This document shows, piece by piece, positions 2,772 to 30,463 of a DNA stretch of 53,972 nt (the first letter of the stretch is position 1; every line of letters starts with the position of its first letter). This DNA comes from Magnetococcales bacterium (GTDB taxonomy: Bacteria > Pseudomonadota > Magnetococcia > Magnetococcales > Magnetaquicoccaceae), in contig JADFWP010000015.1 of assembly GCA_015234115.1 (NCBI GenBank), positions 1 to 53,972 of the forward strand. Reading direction: 5' to 3'. Both the position numbers and the translations under genes were made by a program. A model generated the notes under the pieces. That model ran no database searches, had not been told where the DNA came from, and was given only the letters and a program-made list of their open reading frames with translations.

Positions 2772-5591
2772 TCAGTAAAGCCCGCCGTCCATCTCCCCCT
2801 GGCCATGACGACCGCCACCCGGAGCCACCGGAGGCGTTACCGTCCCGCCACCACCACTCCCCCAACTGCTGCCCCCCCGCGCCGGCTTGCCCGCCGGAGC
2901 CGCAGGCGTACCCCACGAAGACGACGGGACACCAGGATCATCCTCACCCAAAGACTCGCCCGCCGCGCCACTGCTCCCCTCCTCATGGGTCGCCGCAGCG
3001 GCCAGAGGCGTCTGACCCGGCTTGAACGCCTCGAAAACCCGATGGGTCGTACCGGCATCCGGCAGAGTCCCGGTCTCGGCATCGATCTCCTCCAACGAAA
3101 TCCCCGGCGGCACGGCAAAATCGGTCGCAGGCTGCCCCTGCAACGCCTCTTGCATGTAATCCATCCAGATCGGCAACGCCGCCGTGCCGCCGGTCTCGCC
3201 GAGAATGGAGAAATCATCCATGCCCACCCAAACCCCGGCCACCAGCGACGGGGCGATCCCCATGAACCAGGCATCCCGATAATCGTTGGTGGTGCCGGTC
3301 TTGCCCGCAATCGGCCGATTGAGCGCCAGCGCCTTGCGCGCGGTGCCATAACGCACCACCCCCTTCATCAACCCCACCACCTGATAGACACTGGCCGGAT
3401 TCAAGGTCGGCTTGCCGAATTTCGGCGAACTGGGCGCCTCGCCAGCCTGGGGAATGATCCGCTCCGGCTCCTGATGACACAACAGACAGTCCCCGCCCCC
3501 ATGCCGGAAAATGGTCCGTCCGAACCGGTCCTGCACCCGGGCGATGTAAACCGGCTCGACCCGCTTGCCGCCGTTGGCAAATACCGCATAGGCCGCCGTC
3601 ATCTTGAGCGGCGAAAAACCCAATGACCCCAGGGAGAGCGACAGATCCTGCCGGTCCGCAGGCACATCCAGCCCGAAATTCTTCAAATACGAGGCGATAT
3701 AGGGAATGCCGATGCTCTTGGCCAGCCGGACAGTCACCAGATTGCGCGAATGGGTCAAGGCCACGCGAATCGTGGTGGGTCCGAAGTATTTCTTCTCGTA
3801 GTTTTCCGGCTGCCACACCTTGGACTCACCGGTATTCGGATCCCGATAGGTGATGGGCAACGGACTGTCGTCGATCTTGTCTACCGGGGAGAACCCCTTG
3901 TCCATGGCTGCGGTGTAGATGAACGGCTTGAAAGAGGAACCGGGCTGGCGCATGCTCTGAATGGCGCGGTTGAATTCGCTGCGCCCGAAATCATAGCCTC
4001 CCACCATGGCCAACACCTGCCCGGTATGCGGGTCCATGCTGACCAGAGCCGCTTCGGCCACCGGATCCTGGGCCAGGAGATAATAATTCCGCTTGCCTTC
4101 GGGCGGATCGACCAGAATCACATCCCCCGGACTCAACAGATCGGCGATCTTCTTGGGAGCGGGTCCGAGATCCTTGCCATCGCGACTGTCCTTGGCATCC
4201 TTGCGCCGTGGACGCGCCCATTTCACCCCCTCCATGGTGAGCGGCACCTCCTTGCCCGAGGTGAGCATCAACAAGGCAGCCCCCTGCTGCTTGGGCACTT
4301 CGAGGACCAGAGCCTGCACAAACCCGCCAGCCGTGGGCTGACTCTTTTCATGACTCTTGATCCAGGCGGAACGGCCATACGGACCGACATCCGTCACATG
4401 GGTCAATGGACCGCGATAGCCATGACGACGGTCGTATTCCAGCAATCCCTTGCGCACCGCATGCTGGGCAATACGCTGCAACCGGGGATCCAGGGCGGTA
4501 TGCACCTCCAGACCACCGTTGAACAACTGATCGCTGCCCCACTCCTCCAGAATGGTACGACGCACATGTTCCAGATAATAAGGGGCGATCTGTTCCAAAG
4601 ACTCCTTGGGCCGGACCAGATTGAGCGGCGCTTCGATGGCCTCCGCCGCCTCTTCAGCCGTGGCCAGCCCCAGCTCCACCATGCGGTTGAGCACCAGTTT
4701 CTGACGCGCCTTGGCCTTTTCGGGATCACGCCACGGACTGTAATAGCTCGGGGCCTTGGGCAGACCAGCCAGCATGGCCATCTGCCCCAGACTCAATTCG
4801 GAGACATCCCGGGCAAAATAGGCATGCGCCGCCGCCCCCATGCCATAGGCCCCGGCTCCCATGTAGATCTGATTGAAATACAACTCCAGAATTTCATCCT
4901 TGGTGAAACGCTTTTCGATCTGAAACGACAGAATGATCTCCTTGATCTTGCGCTCCATGCTCTTGATGGAGGTCAGAAGAAAGGTGCGGGCCACCTGCTG
5001 GGTGATGGTGGAAGCCCCCTGCTTGCGTCCTCCGGCCTTGAGATTGGTGACCACGGCACGCGCAATGCCGGTCATATCGATACCGGGATGCTGGTAGAAC
5101 CGGGAATCCTCGATGGCCAACAAGGCATCGATCAACCGCTGAGGCATCTCGGAACGGGGGATGAACAGCCGGCGCTGGATGTAAAACTCGCCCATCAGTT
5201 GATAATCCCGCGCATAGACGCGGGTGAGCAGATTGGGACGATAATCGGCCAGACCGTTCAGGGTGGGCAGTCCCTCGGAGAAATGCTGATAGACCCCCCA
5301 GGCCAGCCCGATTCCGGCCAATAACATGAGAAAACCAAGCAAAAACAGTCTCTTTGTCCAGCGCCAGAACCAGCCGGAACCGGATTTTCTGGGCGGTTTG
5401 ACCGGAGGTTTGGCCGGAGGCTTGGCTGCGGATTTGACCGCAGGTCGGCTGGCAGCAGACGATGCCACCGGTTCCGGCGCTTGCCGATCGATGACCAGAT
5501 CCGGTTCAACCGGTCCTCCGGGAACCGGGTCGAAGAGATCCGGTTCGATGACGCCCCTGCCCGGATCGCCTGGTTTGCGTACCGTACCCAT
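2772..5591 (-). CDS. mrcA: Penicillin-binding protein 1A, bifunctional murein synthase
   Basis: The protein has 939 residues from the ATG at 5591; an extra 34 upstream residues in the open frame look non-native. An N-terminal cytoplasmic stretch rich in Pro and Lys (about 50-72) precedes one membrane anchor (about 80-101). The GT51 glycosyltransferase domain shows AIEDSRFYQHPGID (catalytic Glu near 161), GASTITQQVAR and ELYFNQIYMG. The transpeptidase domain shows SSFK (Ser near 552), SRN and KTGTT (near 764). It polymerises and crosslinks peptidoglycan on the outer face of the inner membrane. Between the SRN and KTG motifs lies a loop with CLLCH. The C-terminal 100 residues are Gly/Pro/Ser-rich, low-complexity and probably disordered. 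The gene is divergent from aroB. Confidence 0.95.
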   Translation of the reverse strand: MGTVRKPGDPGRGVIEPDLFDPVPGGPVEPDLVIDRQAPEPVASSAASRPAVKSAAKPPAKPPVKPPRKSGSGWFWRWTKRLFLLGFLMLLAGIGLAWGVYQHFSEGLPTLNGLADYRPNLLTRVYARDYQLMGEFYIQRRLFIPRSEMPQRLIDALLAIEDSRFYQHPGIDMTGIARAVVTNLKAGGRKQGASTITQQVARTFLLTSIKSMERKIKEIILSFQIEKRFTKDEILELYFNQIYMGAGAYGMGAAAHAYFARDVSELSLGQMAMLAGLPKAPSYYSPWRDPEKAKARQKLVLNRMVELGLATAEEAAEAIEAPLNLVRPKESLEQIAPYYLEHVRRTILEEWGSDQLFNGGLEVHTALDPRLQRIAQHAVRKGLLEYDRRHGYRGPLTHVTDVGPYGRSAWIKSHEKSQPTAGGFVQALVLEVPKQQGAALLMLTSGKEVPLTMEGVKWARPRRKDAKDSRDGKDLGPAPKKIADLLSPGDVILVDPPEGKRNYYLLAQDPVAEAALVSMDPHTGQVLAMVGGYDFGRSEFNRAIQSMRQPGSSFKPFIYTAAMDKGFSPVDKIDDSPLPITYRDPNTGESKVWQPENYEKKYFGPTTIRVALTHSRNLVTVRLAKSIGIPYIASYLKNFGLDVPADRQDLSLSLGSLGFSPLKMTAAYAVFANGGKRVEPVYIARVQDRFGRTIFRHGGGDCLLCHQEPERIIPQAGEAPSSPKFGKPTLNPASVYQVVGLMKGVVRYGTARKALALNRPIAGKTGTTNDYRDAWFMGIAPSLVAGVWVGMDDFSILGETGGTAALPIWMDYMQEALQGQPATDFAVPPGISLEEIDAETGTLPDAGTTHRVFEAFKPGQTPLAAAATHEEGSSGAAGESLGEDDPGVPSSSWGTPAAPAGKPARGGSSWGSGGGGTVTPPVAPGGGRHGQGEMDGGLY

Positions 5592-26386: not shown

Positions 26387-28105
26387 TCATAACGTATTGC
26401 TGTTGGCCCGCCGCACCAGCTCCTCGCGCTGCCGACGCACGATATGGGCTTGCAGCTTCTCCCGATGAAGCGGGGCCATATGCTCGAAATAACTGGCCAC
26501 ACGCCGTTTCCCCTGTTCATCCGGCTCGGCGACCACCACCACCCGACCATAGGCCCAAACCACCTCCATGCCCCGTCCCTCCGGATCCACCCCAAGCCGC
26601 ACCTCCACCAGATCCCCCTTGTAAATCCGACTTTTCAAGGTGCTCCATGCCACGCCGGTGGCACTCAGATTGACGGTGAAAATGGCATCCCCTTCGGCAG
26701 TCAACTGTTTCGGGATATCCTGCAACGAAAGATCCATCATGGCAAAAGCCTCGCGCAACCCCTCCAGTTTTCCCGCCAGATCCGAACCGGCGGCGCGCAA
26801 CTCGGCCATGAGTTTGCTGCTCTGGCGTCTCACCTCGACCAGATCCTCTTCGGCCTTGCTCCGGGCCTGCTTCTGACTCACCGGATCCATCAGATCCCGC
26901 GCCATCTGCAAATCCACCTGATCCTTGATCAAGGACACCACCTGGGCCGCCGTCATCGAACCCGGCGGACGCTTGGTCAACTCCCGGATCAACGCGAAAA
27001 AGAGCATCAAAGCACTCTGGTAAAACTCCTCTTCGTTTTCGGAATTGGCCTGTCGGAACCGCTGATCCAGAAACTCCCGGAACCACACCACGGGCCGTCT
27101 GGCTTTGACATTGAGCTGTTTCAACAATTTCAACTGCACATCGACTTCGGCCAGCAGCCGTTTCTGTCGCGCCACCCGTTCGCGCAACGGAAACTCGCGA
27201 TGATTTTCAAAATACTCGATGGCCTGATCGAAACTCTTCTGGGTCAACACCTTCCAGGCCAACGGCAGATTGTCGTTCAGCCGGAAATCCTGGCGCTTGG
27301 TGCCCGTATGCACCCCTCCCTGAAACGATACCGTGGCCGGAGGCGGCGCCGCTCTCGGGACAGGACGGGGCGGAGGAGGTGGAGGGGGCGTCACATGGGC
27401 TGCAACCACTCTGGGATCGACCTCCAGCATGGCCTTGCCTGCGGCCAGGGTGTGATCCCATCGCTCCTGCGCAGACTCGGCCACGGCTGGAGCATGCGCT
27501 TGAACCGGAAGAGACGCCGGAGGGGATGCCGGCAGAGAGGCAGGCCGGACCACCTCGGGAGCTGAAGCGGTCTGCGGCAGAGGCTGTGGATCTTCCACGG
27601 TCTCGAAAACGCAATCAACCCGAATGCCGGTGCCATTCCATTCGGGTCGCACCCGTTGCACCCGACAATAGGCATGCATGGGCATGGGTTGTTCGGCAAA
27701 AAGCGCAAAACGCAATTCCAGCAGGTCGCCAGCCGCAAACTCCCCCTCCGGAACCCAAAAGGTCAATCCGGACCCGGATTCGTGCCACTGCATGGGGTGC
27801 GGCACCAGAAGATCGGCGCCAGGTCGGGAGCGTTCCACCACGCGATTGAGTTTGGCGTTGAAGATCTCCAGGACCAGATGACGCCAGCGTTGCGCCAGGG
27901 AGGCGACCCGGCCGGAGGCGTAATGTTCCTGTTCGGATTCCAGCAGCGACCGGGTTTCGCCGCCCAGACCGGGGTGGACGGAGAGCGCGGGTCGGTTGGT
28001 CCGCCGCGCGCGACGCACGGCAGCGAACTCCACATTCGTAATCTTGCGCCACCACAGTGGCACGTCGATCACGGAGGATCCCGGTGCCGCCACATTTTCA
28101 GCCAT
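26387..28105 (-). CDS. Large PilZ-domain protein with internal helical insert
   Basis: The protein has 572 residues. Residues 30-170 look like a degenerate PilZ barrel (ESGSGLTF, RVQRVRPEWNGTGIRVDCVF). A Pro/Ala-rich linker (about 172-262, including a Pro run at 240-247) follows. A second PilZ-type unit has RQDFR (271-275), the RxxxR c-di-GMP motif, then LPLAW; but the matching NLSATG (479-484) comes some 200 residues later. The intervening part is helical and coiled-coil-like (310-460). The C-terminus carries RVASYFEHM and a basic helix HIVRRQREELVRR, as in other PilZ proteins. The neighbouring 197-residue PilZ protein has the same interrupted layout. Role inferred: c-di-GMP effector acting on the motAB-like unit upstream. 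Cytoplasmic. Confidence 0.75.
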   Translation of the reverse strand: MAENVAAPGSSVIDVPLWWRKITNVEFAAVRRARRTNRPALSVHPGLGGETRSLLESEQEHYASGRVASLAQRWRHLVLEIFNAKLNRVVERSRPGADLLVPHPMQWHESGSGLTFWVPEGEFAAGDLLELRFALFAEQPMPMHAYCRVQRVRPEWNGTGIRVDCVFETVEDPQPLPQTASAPEVVRPASLPASPPASLPVQAHAPAVAESAQERWDHTLAAGKAMLEVDPRVVAAHVTPPPPPPPRPVPRAAPPPATVSFQGGVHTGTKRQDFRLNDNLPLAWKVLTQKSFDQAIEYFENHREFPLRERVARQKRLLAEVDVQLKLLKQLNVKARRPVVWFREFLDQRFRQANSENEEEFYQSALMLFFALIRELTKRPPGSMTAAQVVSLIKDQVDLQMARDLMDPVSQKQARSKAEEDLVEVRRQSSKLMAELRAAGSDLAGKLEGLREAFAMMDLSLQDIPKQLTAEGDAIFTVNLSATGVAWSTLKSRIYKGDLVEVRLGVDPEGRGMEVVWAYGRVVVVAEPDEQGKRRVASYFEHMAPLHREKLQAHIVRRQREELVRRANSNTL

Positions 28106-28139
28106 GTCAACCTCTCCAAAGCGGACAACTTTTAAAAAA

Positions 28140-28254
28140 AAAGAGGGGGTCTGGGGGATTCATCCCCCAGGATTTTGACTTTAAACAAAAAAATTTAAAA
28201 ATGTTTTGTTTAAAGTCAAAATCCTGGGGGATGAATCCCCCAGACCCCCTCTTT
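28140..28254. repeat. 51-bp perfect inverted repeat made of palindrome copies C and D
   Basis: Arms 28140-28190 and 28204-28254 pair without mismatch over 51 bp around a 13-base A/T-rich loop (28191-28203). Each arm contains a TCTGGGGGA half of the family seen at 2713 and 20723, a small inner palindrome (CTGGGGGA...TCCCCCAG), and a new segment GATTTTGACTTTAAACAAAA. It lies between the two PilZ genes and could terminate or stabilise the transcript. Its form suggests two inverted, truncated copies of a small mobile palindrome. Confidence 0.9.
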
Positions 28255-28272
28255 ATCTTTCAATAATTGGAT

Positions 28273-28866
28273 TCAATACCCTCTTTTGGCGCGCAGCAGT
28301 TCCGACTGGCGCTGGAAAATGTATTGGATCAGGCGCTCCCGGTCGGTATCGAGAATCGGCTCGAAACGACACGCCACACGGGTCAAGCCATCCGGCTGCG
28401 GATCACTCACCATCATCACCCGCGCGAAACAATCGATCACCGTCAAGGATTCCACGGACAAGGCCAACCGCAACTCCAGCATCTCCCCCTTGGCCAAACC
28501 CGGATCCTGATCCAGAAAGGAGATCCCTCCCCCGCTCAGATTGACCGGCGTCAACACCATGGGACGCTCGGCCTCCCCTGGATGAAACAGCCGCAACAAC
28601 AAATTCAGCTTCTGGTCCAGCCGCACCAGAATCCGCGCCAGCAAGGGATCGCTCTGTTCCATCAGGCGCACAGCATCCGTGATATCCAGGGAGGTGATGA
28701 TCTGGTGGACATCCAACCCTTTTTGCGGAAAAACACGATGCTTCTCAAAGTGGGCCAGCACCTCCTGAAAACGCGACTCTTCGATGCGCCGCCACGCCAA
28801 AGGAAGCGAGGCATCCACCCGGACAAAAGCCCGCTGCTGTCCCTGAACCGAATTGCTCTGCGCCAT
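28273..28866 (-). CDS. PilZ-domain protein with helical insert
   Basis: The protein has 197 residues. RAFVR (12-16) is the RxxxR c-di-GMP-binding motif and NLSGGG (109-114) the second PilZ motif; ordinary PilZ domains place these about 20-35 residues apart, here 93. The insert (20-100) is helical. The rest of the barrel (LELRLALSVESLTVIDCFARV, RVACRFEPI) and a C-terminal basic helix (YIFQRQSELLRAK) are typical. It starts 17 bases after the motB-like stop. By analogy with YcgR it may bind the motor or stator when c-di-GMP is high (inference). Confidence 0.82.
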   Translation of the reverse strand: MAQSNSVQGQQRAFVRVDASLPLAWRRIEESRFQEVLAHFEKHRVFPQKGLDVHQIITSLDITDAVRLMEQSDPLLARILVRLDQKLNLLLRLFHPGEAERPMVLTPVNLSGGGISFLDQDPGLAKGEMLELRLALSVESLTVIDCFARVMMVSDPQPDGLTRVACRFEPILDTDRERLIQYIFQRQSELLRAKRGY

Positions 28867-28883: not shown

Positions 28884-29672
28884 TCATTGTGCGACAGGAG
28901 CCGAAGCCGGAACCGCAGCAGGTGCCGCTGCTCCGGACGGACCCGAAGAGCGCACACCCGACTCGGCAGGCGACTCGCGGGTCAGAAGAATCTCGATGCG
29001 CGCCATCGGGGCAGCGCCCCCTTCCTCACGGACCGCCGGATGCCCCATGGGCCGCAGACGCGCCGGATCGAGCGCGCCGGATTTCACGAAAAAGTCGGCC
29101 ACGGTCGCAGACTCGGCGGAAGTGAGCGCCCAGGCGCTCCCCAACGGCGCGGAACGCCCCTCTCCGGCATGACTGTCGATGCGCACCGTATTGGGCAACC
29201 GGGCGATCATCTGCGCCAACTGTTTGAGCAGCGGCTCGACCTCGGGCCTCAAGGTCACGGCATCTTCCGCAAAAATGGCCCCGCGACTCAACCGGATCAG
29301 GAATCCCTCATCGACCAGTTTGACTTCCAAAGCCTTGGCGTCACCGAGACGTTGATGCAAAACCGCGAGCTTTTCCTTGATGCGTACCAGTTCCACGGCC
29401 TGCTCGAACGCCATGGCCTCGACCATGGCATGGGAGTCCCCACCACCACTGTCCGCGCGGCGCGGCGACGCATCCGACAGCGCCTCGAACCCGAACGCGG
29501 TCCGGATCGAAGCCGTGACCTCGGCCAGGCGCGCGCCGTCCGGACGGGAGATGGAGAGCAGCAGAATGCATACCGCCAGCAGCATGGTCATCATGCTCAC
29601 CAACGGCATCACCCACCCCGGCGTACCGCCTGGCAGCAATCCGCCCTCTTTTTCCTCTTGCTCATCGATCAT
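28884..29672 (-). CDS. MotB-like stator protein lacking the proton-binding Asp
   Basis: The protein has 262 residues. The N-terminus aligns with MotB: a short acidic tail, PGWVMPLVSMMTMLLA and one membrane span (about 20-41). The position of the invariant MotB Asp (in xADMMTLL) is Ser26, encoded AGC, and no acidic residue is present in the span. The OmpA-like domain (about 115-235) keeps IFAEDAVTLRPEVEPLL, but GHTD reads SHAG and the LSxxRA Arg position reads TSAESA, so peptidoglycan-contact residues are also lost. A Pro/Ala-rich tail follows. It lies 38 bases after a normal-looking motA. Ordinary ion-driven torque seems unlikely; it could be a modified stator or a related transport or signalling unit. 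I leave the symbol blank for that reason. Confidence 0.8.
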   Translation of the reverse strand: MIDEQEEKEGGLLPGGTPGWVMPLVSMMTMLLAVCILLLSISRPDGARLAEVTASIRTAFGFEALSDASPRRADSGGGDSHAMVEAMAFEQAVELVRIKEKLAVLHQRLGDAKALEVKLVDEGFLIRLSRGAIFAEDAVTLRPEVEPLLKQLAQMIARLPNTVRIDSHAGEGRSAPLGSAWALTSAESATVADFFVKSGALDPARLRPMGHPAVREEGGAAPMARIEILLTRESPAESGVRSSGPSGAAAPAAVPASAPVAQ

Positions 29673-29710: not shown

Positions 29711-30463
29711 TCATTTGATGTCTCTTTCGGAGGGCGGCAGCACCGCGACCAAAGACTCCATCAACATGCGGGGATTGACCCCCTTTTGAATGCCGATCAT
29801 GCCATCGATGATCACCTGACGCACCATCTGCTCCTCCTTGCTGTAAGCGGTCAGCTTGTAGGAGATGGGAATGGCCACCAGATTGGCAATGAAAATGCCA
29901 TAGAAAGTGCTGATCAGGGCCATGGCCAAACCAGGTCCGATCGAATTCGGATCCTCCATGTGCACCAGCATCTGCACCAGGCCGATCAGGGTGCCCAACA
30001 ACCCGAAAGCGGGCGCGGCTTCGGCGATGCCTTCGAAGATCCCCACCCCGTTGCGGTGACGATCCCGTTGATAGCTCAACTCTTTGGCCAGCACCTTTTC
30101 CAGAAACGCCGGATCCGCCCCATCCACGCAGTGGTTGATGGCCTTTTGCAGAAACTCATCCTTGGACTTGACCTTTTCCAGGGCGAGAATGCCATCCTTG
30201 CGGGCGACATGGGACATCTCGATGATCTGGCCGATGATCTGGTGGATGTCGTGGGATTTGATGAGAAAGGCCTTCATCAGGATGCCAAAGGCACCAAAGA
30301 CTTCACTCATGCGGTGACGGATGAACAGCGTGGCCATCGTCCCGCCGAAGACGATCAGGATGCTGGGGATGTCCACGAACATGCCGAGCTGACCACCCAT
30401 CAAGATGGCGCCGAACATCAGAGCCAGCCCGAAAATGAAACCGATGATCGTCGCGAAATCCAT
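29711..30463 (-). CDS. motA: MotA-family stator protein
   Basis: The protein has 250 residues with four membrane spans (about 4-22, 33-50, 150-172 and 182-204). Conserved parts are VFGGTMATLF, EAAPAFGLLGTLIGLVQML (TM3, with the conserved Pro) and ALISTFYGIFIANLVAIPISYKL (TM4 with the second Pro). The cytoplasmic loop is of normal size. Family members form the pentameric ring of the flagellar stator around a MotB dimer. The partner downstream lacks the channel Asp, so the working of this pair is open. First gene of a motA-motB-pilZ-pilZ set, 126 bases after mtnA. Confidence 0.88.
   Translation of the reverse strand: MDFATIIGFIFGLALMFGAILMGGQLGMFVDIPSILIVFGGTMATLFIRHRMSEVFGAFGILMKAFLIKSHDIHQIIGQIIEMSHVARKDGILALEKVKSKDEFLQKAINHCVDGADPAFLEKVLAKELSYQRDRHRNGVGIFEGIAEAAPAFGLLGTLIGLVQMLVHMEDPNSIGPGLAMALISTFYGIFIANLVAIPISYKLTAYSKEEQMVRQVIIDGMIGIQKGVNPRMLMESLVAVLPPSERDIK

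Follow-up and report, generated by a model that had tools for sequence, protein, structure and literature searches.

A recurrent MotB-like protein without the ion-binding aspartate in PilZ-linked, stator-like operons of the Magnetococcales

The single ion-binding Asp in the membrane helix of MotB is regarded as the hallmark residue of a flagellar stator. Dual stators are known, and both members of the Pseudomonas pair, MotAB and MotCD, drive the motor. Among the closest described systems to the locus analyzed here is the sodium stator PomAB of Vibrio (structures 8brd and 8bri); in PomA numbering, R88, K89, E96, D114, and R232 are charged residues that contact FliG (passages of PMC10374538). 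Stators that lack the Asp have been engineered. PomB-D24N and PomA-T158A/T186A abolished ion transport while the complex was still formed (PMC6677748), MotB-D24N units of Borrelia docked at about 7 of 16 places and stators of other species are described as leaving the motor once ion flow stops (passages of PMC6663468), and MotB-D24A of B. subtilis was dominant-negative (PMC3963450). PilZ proteins regulate motors as YcgR, MotI, FlgZ, and MotL. MotI and FlgZ bind the stator A subunits MotA or MotC, FlgZ being paired with MotC, and in Shewanella the lateral flagella are under the control of motL, a PilZ gene located downstream of motB (passages of PMC8203827). One magnetotactic strain has several motAB/pomAB sets, and passages of the review that mentions them are silent on a MotB without the Asp (PMC7175107). 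Titles and abstract openings listed in searches of the open literature, a scope outside which most subscription journals fall, contained no report of a natural Asp-less MotB.

The whole stretch of DNA that was analyzed, referred to as the window (53,972 nucleotides), comes from a Magnetococcales genome (G000) that consists of 161 contigs and is 77% complete. It contains an operon on the minus strand in the order motA, motB-like, pilZ1, pilZ2, with the following features.

29711..30463, minus strand: motA/pomA (Pfam MotA_ExbB, E 6e-29; phmmer to the PomA structure 8brd, E 1.4e-61)
28884..29672, minus strand: motB/pomB-like gene, an open reading frame of 262 aa with Ser26 at the position of the ion-binding Asp
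29544..29627, minus strand: membrane helix of the MotB-like protein, about residues 16-43, without an acidic residue (extent by alignment)
29595..29597, minus strand: codon of Ser26, which aligns with PomB Asp24 (coordinates computed from the start of the reading frame)
28273..28866, minus strand: pilZ1, a PilZ-domain protein with RxxxR and NLSGGG (Pfam PilZ, E 1.2e-9)
26387..28105, minus strand: pilZ2, 572 aa with two PilZ stretches (Pfam PilZ, E 3.6e-6; TIGR02266, E 6e-7)

An inverted repeat with 66-nt arms, 92% complementary and 1 nt apart, lies between pilZ1 and pilZ2 at 28131-28263 of the window. Its core, GTCTGGGGGATTCATCCCCCAGG, had 233 matches per strand in the 3.3 Mb genome at no more than 3 mismatches (0 for the reversed control), and several of the listed copies sit about 10 bases from contig ends. 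The repeat is probably a high-copy palindromic element that breaks the assembly.

The window MotB has the architecture of MotB and PomB, with an N-terminal membrane helix (GWVMPLVSMMTMLLAVCILLLSIS), a plug region, and an OmpA-like domain, and its gene adjoins motA. Pfam matched MotB_plug (E 2.4e-4) and OmpA (E 2.5e-5), both slightly below the curated cut-offs. What it does not have is the ion-binding Asp of the helix. Ser26 aligned with Asp24 of Vibrio PomB when solved chains were used, in agreement with the preliminary description of this DNA, which had placed a Ser at the invariant Asp and had seen no acidic residue in the span. The second part of that observation held well beyond the window: none of the 24 Asp-less MotBs of related operons has an acidic residue inside the membrane helix, one G020 copy having an Asp directly before the helix and not within it. 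The place of the Asp is taken by Ser in 10 of these genes, Gly in 9, Thr in 2, Asn in 2, and Ala in 1. An assembly error is unlikely to account for the missing Asp because the gene was found in nine of the 10 other genomes of the window genus, in all nine without the Asp; G005 (76% complete), the tenth, yielded no such operon. Every copy found in the genus has an open frame, 10 in all, and so do the Asp-less genes of other lineages. The same position is lost in the engineered stators PomB-D24N, MotB-D24N, MotB-D24A, and MotB-D32N, which remain able to assemble and, in certain species, to dock or interfere, but the form in the window is natural and lineage-wide, has evolved at least three times, and is accompanied by intact partners and PilZ genes.

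The OmpA-like domain of the window MotB also departs from PomB, with SHAG in place of GHTD and Glu187 at the place of the Arg of LSxxRA. Both had been put forward as losses that accompany the loss of the ion site, an argument that proved weaker than stated. The Asp of GHTD is missing from all 10 genes of the window genus, from 12 of the 24 Asp-less genes, the other half of which keep it, and from one of 16 Asp-bearing operon genes. The absence of the Arg is not special because the Arg is missing from nearly all Magnetococcales MotBs seen; it is present in 2 of 16 Asp-bearing and 3 of 24 Asp-less operon MotBs and in none of the 41 further MotBs retrieved from Magnetococcales genomes, in which this column is less securely aligned. 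For that reason the loss of peptidoglycan-binding residues was mostly dropped as independent evidence.

The partner MotA is normal in most respects. It is colinear with PomA 1-239 without gaps, so that PomA numbering applies, it is PomA-like over its length, and it has the conserved Pro pair (Pro151 and Pro199) that had been noted in the preliminary description. It retains T158 and T186 of the sodium-type ion site and carries R88, K89, E96, D114, and R232 on the rotor-facing side, and it differs from PomA in having Ser for T185 and Leu for M155. Position 155 is Leu in 18 of 23 Asp-less MotAs, and position 185 is variable (Ala or Ser), with Ala in 24 of 30 other MotAs of the order. We weighed these two changes as possible proof that the ion site is dead and set them aside because proton stators carry such letters and an M155L stator retained 80% motility (passages of PMC10374538). 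Position 186 behaves differently between the two classes. All 13 Asp-bearing operons have Thr there, as do all 30 other MotAs that were fetched from the order, vs. 16 of 23 Asp-less operons, the remaining seven having Ile (three), Val (two), Ala (one), and Phe (one). On the MotA tree these replacements amount to five changes, all within Asp-less clades, which make up 36% of the tree length; the chance of all five falling there is 0.36^5 = 0.006. The charged residues that face the rotor were nearly always kept in the Asp-less MotAs: R88 in 23 of 23, K89 in 22, E96 in 21 (the other two having Asp), D114 in 23, and R232 in 22.

The pilZ genes have no counterpart in the comparison with Vibrio PomAB. 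PilZ1 carries RAFVR and NLSGGG, which fit the YcgR/MotI-type pattern (RxxxR and (D/N)xSxxG), motifs that predict binding of c-di-GMP. R12 and R16 did not vary in either of two alignments (20 and 27 rows), whereas genus g2 has an altered second motif. The only solved structure that PilZ1 matched was MotI/YpfA (5vx6), and the match was weak (E 0.008). A stretch near the C-terminus of PilZ2 is 34% identical to PilZ1. The layout resembles that of motL in that PilZ genes adjoin stator genes, but the partner stator here lacks the ion site and c-di-GMP binding by PilZ1 and PilZ2 is predicted from their sequences.

The motA-motB operon with pilZ genes recurs across the order Magnetococcales. A strong match to pilZ1 was detected in 41 of 48 genomes of the order (43 with weak matches counted), usually in the gene order motA-motB-pilZ1-pilZ2 and in genus g2 as pilZ1-motA-motB. 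The linked MotB was readable in 37 genomes. Twenty-three of these lack the Asp (24 genes) and 14 have it (16 genes; G014, G019, G023, G024, G025, G027, G028, G032, G033, G034, G037, G038, G039, and G041), while 11 of the 48 were left unclassed (G005, G015, G016, G021, G022, G026, G031, G036, G040, G043, and G046). G004, in which pilZ1 is off the contig, was placed with the Asp-less genomes on account of the relationships of its MotA and MotB; G033, in which MotA is off the contig, was counted among the Asp-bearing genomes. The search for homologues with the same change and the same pilZ neighbors, which the preliminary description had proposed, was thus productive. It also returned what that description had named as evidence against a changed function, namely operons with the same neighbors in which the Asp is kept, although these 14 genomes belong to other genera. 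All 10 readable operon MotBs of the window genus are without the Asp. Two genera contain both states: in g2 the residue is Asp in G014 and Gly in G011, G012, G013, and G017, and in g14 it is Asp in G039 and Ser or Gly in six others. G014 and G039 and their respective genus mates offer related genomes for comparison, in which the activity of a stator unable to pull could be examined.

Tandem motB copies lie between motA and pilZ1 at three loci, both copies having the Asp at L059 (G032) and L060 (G034) and both lacking it at L082 (G020). Five genomes of genus g2 carry a further type of Asp-less MotB-like gene (L101, L102, L103, L104, and L105) in which Asn occupies the Asp position, and no motA or pilZ1 was seen on the stretches read around these genes.

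Outside the order, in the same phylum, the Asp motif was present in one of the six frames of 40 of 40 MotB_plug stretches, which were picked by hand among the best matches listed, the weakest matches lying outside the sample. Short patterns taken from the PilZ1 alignment were used to scan one genome each of 84,980 species. The loci confirmed by tblastn numbered 30 and were all in the Magnetococcales, which does not prove absence elsewhere. Genome contigs scanned with the window MotB protein as the query gave no confirmed relative, and a plasmid search gave six distant matches (22-28% identity).

The Asp state changed repeatedly within the order. A tree of MotA plus PilZ1 from 36 operons, from which G016 (MotB off the contig) was excluded and G033 is absent, required a minimum of three changes of Asp state, and a single clade of all 23 Asp-less operons was rejected (p-AU 1.4e-7). 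The placement of G018, G020, and G030 is uncertain owing to long branches; three changes were still required when three long rows were removed. A tree of 66 MotAs gave four changes. Support for the nodes that join Asp-less rows was 100/97 in g2, 100/99 in g1, and 85/71 in g14 (97/90 on the MotA tree). The direction of change was presumably loss rather than gain of the Asp because other stators carry it.

Genomes with an Asp-less operon usually encode another stator. A second, Asp-bearing MotB was detected elsewhere in the genome in 22 of 23 Asp-less genomes vs. three of 14 Asp-bearing genomes (G014, G025, and G039). A second stator was defined as a MotB_plug match of more than 50 bits, each of the 22 genomes having at least one that was read as Asp-bearing; matches below 50 bits, present in many genomes, were not counted, and some of the 11 Asp-bearing genomes without a second match are incomplete assemblies. 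The Fisher p of 4.6e-6 for this association ignores kinship. With kinship considered there are about three independent contrasts and the association is not significant, so we dropped it as a statistical claim. The pattern recalls MotAB and MotCD of Pseudomonas in that there are two stators per genome, one of which is tied to a PilZ regulator; it differs in that both Pseudomonas stators drive the motor.

The sole exception among the 23 is the window genome itself. The preliminary description had asked whether an ordinary motAB pair is also present; none was found in G000 (77% complete), whereas the other Asp-less genomes all have a second, Asp-bearing MotB. In G010 a gene identified by eye as glnS precedes the ordinary motAB. 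There are 81 bases between the end of the glnS-like gene of G000, which is 89% identical to that of G010, and the start of contig C91, which opens in sequence resembling the high-copy palindromic repeat, and the ordinary pair of the window genome therefore probably sits in an assembly gap. The gene expected to flank the pair on its other side was not found in G000.

The missing Asp, the lack of a substitute acid, its repeated loss, the constraint on MotA and its rotor-facing charges, and the second stator in 22 of 23 genomes are the sequence observations that any explanation must accommodate. The most far-reaching reading, with a probability of roughly 0.4, is that at least three times in the Magnetococcales a working PilZ-linked stator turned into a MotA5B2 pseudo-stator unable to use ions, a passive brake or place-holder at the flagellar rotor, gated by c-di-GMP, beside a driving stator. 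Its parts differ in strength. That the operon unit is non-conducting and has been kept for a function is highly probable. Given that, a role as a brake or slot-filler at the rotor would be slightly favored over other roles. The more general statement, which we prefer, is that the stator ceded ion-driven work to a second one and was kept as a non-conducting unit facing the rotor, perhaps as a brake or slot-filler; it has about even odds on the comparative data.

The ancestor would have been an ordinary PilZ-linked flagellar stator, which it apparently still is in genomes such as G027, a single contig of 4,719,581 bases where the operon MotB is the sole strong match. In lineages with a second, Asp-bearing stator, the PilZ-linked MotB would have lost its Asp and some MotAs also Thr186, in an order of events that we infer, and the charged face of MotA that meets FliG would have been retained through these losses. 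Judging from the mutants of known stators, the complex would still assemble and would pass no ions and generate no torque. More speculatively, c-di-GMP acting through the PilZ partners may bring about docking at the rotor, where the unit could slow or block rotation or occupy stator places.

Several observations weigh against this pseudo-stator reading. Constraint on the Asp-less MotB is relaxed, with a marked fall in helix identity, and the association with a second stator loses significance when kinship is considered. The window's own MotA keeps T186 and T158, no pilZ2 was seen beside the operon in genus g2, and the second stator of the window genome was not found. A unit without the Asp of GHTD, as in the whole window genus, may not be anchored to the cell wall, in which case it would not brake. 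The reduced docking of D24N units and the departure of stators without ion flow likewise argue against firm attachment.

The operon could instead encode a signaling scaffold, in which the MotA ring is a membrane dock for PilZ proteins, MotB is kept only for assembly of the ring, and contact with the rotor is unneeded; such a scaffold might sense load or c-di-GMP or store PilZ proteins for release to brake the other stator. Several observations favor it: whether or not the Asp is present, pilZ1 adjoins motAB, and so does pilZ2 except in genus g2 and at contig ends, MotB is less constrained than MotA and PilZ1, and the Asp of GHTD is lost across the whole window genus. We nevertheless regard a scaffold as unlikely. 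Each FliG-facing charge of MotA is retained by 21-23 of the 23 Asp-less operons, which is beyond the needs of a mere dock, even if these residues are also part of the MotA-MotA junction and could bind PilZ. Furthermore, pilZ1 and pilZ2 occur together with no motAB adjoining in G021, G036, and G040.

Alternatively, the operon could be in slow decay, a stator made superfluous by the second one and drifting, weakly constrained, toward loss, and the behavior of MotB gives this explanation some basis. Estimates of dN/dS for the Asp-less MotB in nine pairs of Asp-less genomes were 0.12-0.30; in the four of those pairs with ordinary MotBs the values were 0.12-0.23 for the Asp-less MotB and 0.044-0.096 for the ordinary one, and MotBs of Asp-bearing operons gave 0.058 and 0.096 in two pairs. 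These values, obtained by a Nei-Gojobori count on stop-to-stop frames with eight codons trimmed at each end, are rough in that certain genomes enter more than one pair and dS reaches or exceeds about 1 in some pairs. Identity in the MotB helix was 0.89 over the 16 Asp-bearing operon MotBs vs. 0.56 within the window genus, and the outer domain showed no drop of this kind. The five losses of T186 and the nearly constant presence of a second stator point the same way. Constraint on the Asp-less MotB is thus relaxed, yet its dN/dS is well under 1. The MotA of the same nine pairs, with dN/dS of 0.016-0.093, is as constrained as the MotA of ordinary pairs (0.032-0.096), so that the membrane part of MotB was released while MotA was held. 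Since the frames also remain open and pilZ1 is matched strongly in most genomes of the order, we consider decay more doubtful than a scaffold. The preliminary description had preferred a changed function to decay and had named relaxed selection across relatives as a sign to the contrary. Its preference is borne out by the spread of the Asp-less form through the genus, its recurrence at least three times, the constrained MotA with rotor charges nearly intact, and the open frames; the contrary sign is present in MotB, above all in the helix, and not in MotA.

A third alternative is that Asp-less MotB pairs with an Asp-bearing MotB in mixed complexes that have one ion site per unit instead of two. 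Both kinds of MotB occur in 22 of 23 Asp-less genomes, and two MotBs per MotA do occur, either as the tandem copies of G032, G034, and G020 or as two Asp-bearing MotBs near one MotA in G011, G012, G013, G014, and G016. Mixed complexes are nonetheless quite improbable, because nearly every Asp-bearing MotB that was read adjoins its own MotA or one shared with another Asp-bearing MotB (the exception, in G026, lies at a contig start), the tandem copies agree in having or lacking the Asp, and the loss of T186 from operon MotAs speaks against conduction in those lineages. Of the two possibilities raised in the preliminary description, a non-torque complex fits the data, whereas a differently energized stator, in which another ion or residue such as Glu148 of MotA replaces the Asp, is the least credible explanation, since an acidic residue (Glu or Asp) occupies position 148 in all 23 Asp-less MotAs but equally in all 13 Asp-bearing ones, the replacement of the Asp varies by lineage as expected for lost rather than swapped chemistry, T186 drifts in several lineages, and no acid peculiar to Asp-less operons was seen inside the MotA helices (Asp31, commoner in Asp-less MotAs at 16 of 23 vs. 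3 of 13, lies in the outer loop).

If the pseudo-stator reading is true, a conserved and recurrent Asp-less stator-like unit would be to motors what pseudo-enzymes are to enzymes, and the part that MotA plays in contacting the rotor would be separated in nature from its ion-driven role. The repeated loss of the ion residue from genes that were kept beside signal-sensing partners suggests that a motor part was turned into a control part in the Magnetococcales.

Other motor-related genes were seen in these genomes. A full-length FliG is encoded on contig C89 of G000 among flagellar-looking genes (neighbors named by eye), and a stand-alone, short FliG_C-like gene (L189) lies on contig C22 at 3768-4181 on the minus strand. 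Short FliG_C-like genes, with open frames mostly of 145-215 aa, were also found in G003, G004, G005, G008, G009, G010, genus g2, and some g9 genomes, and they adjoin transporter-like and integrase-like genes in G000, G010, and G014 (labels by eye). We dropped the idea that extra FliG_C genes supply a separate rotor for a dead stator because they occur as well in G033, G037, and G041, where the sole strong MotB match has the Asp. G001, called 100% complete, has stator genes and no FliG_C match. On contig C161 of G000, L001 encodes a 286-aa MotB_plug protein that has the Asp (NPFWISYADLMTALVMLF) and that presumably resembles ZorB of the Zorya defense system; weak MotB_plug matches of comparable extent are found repeatedly across the Magnetococcales.
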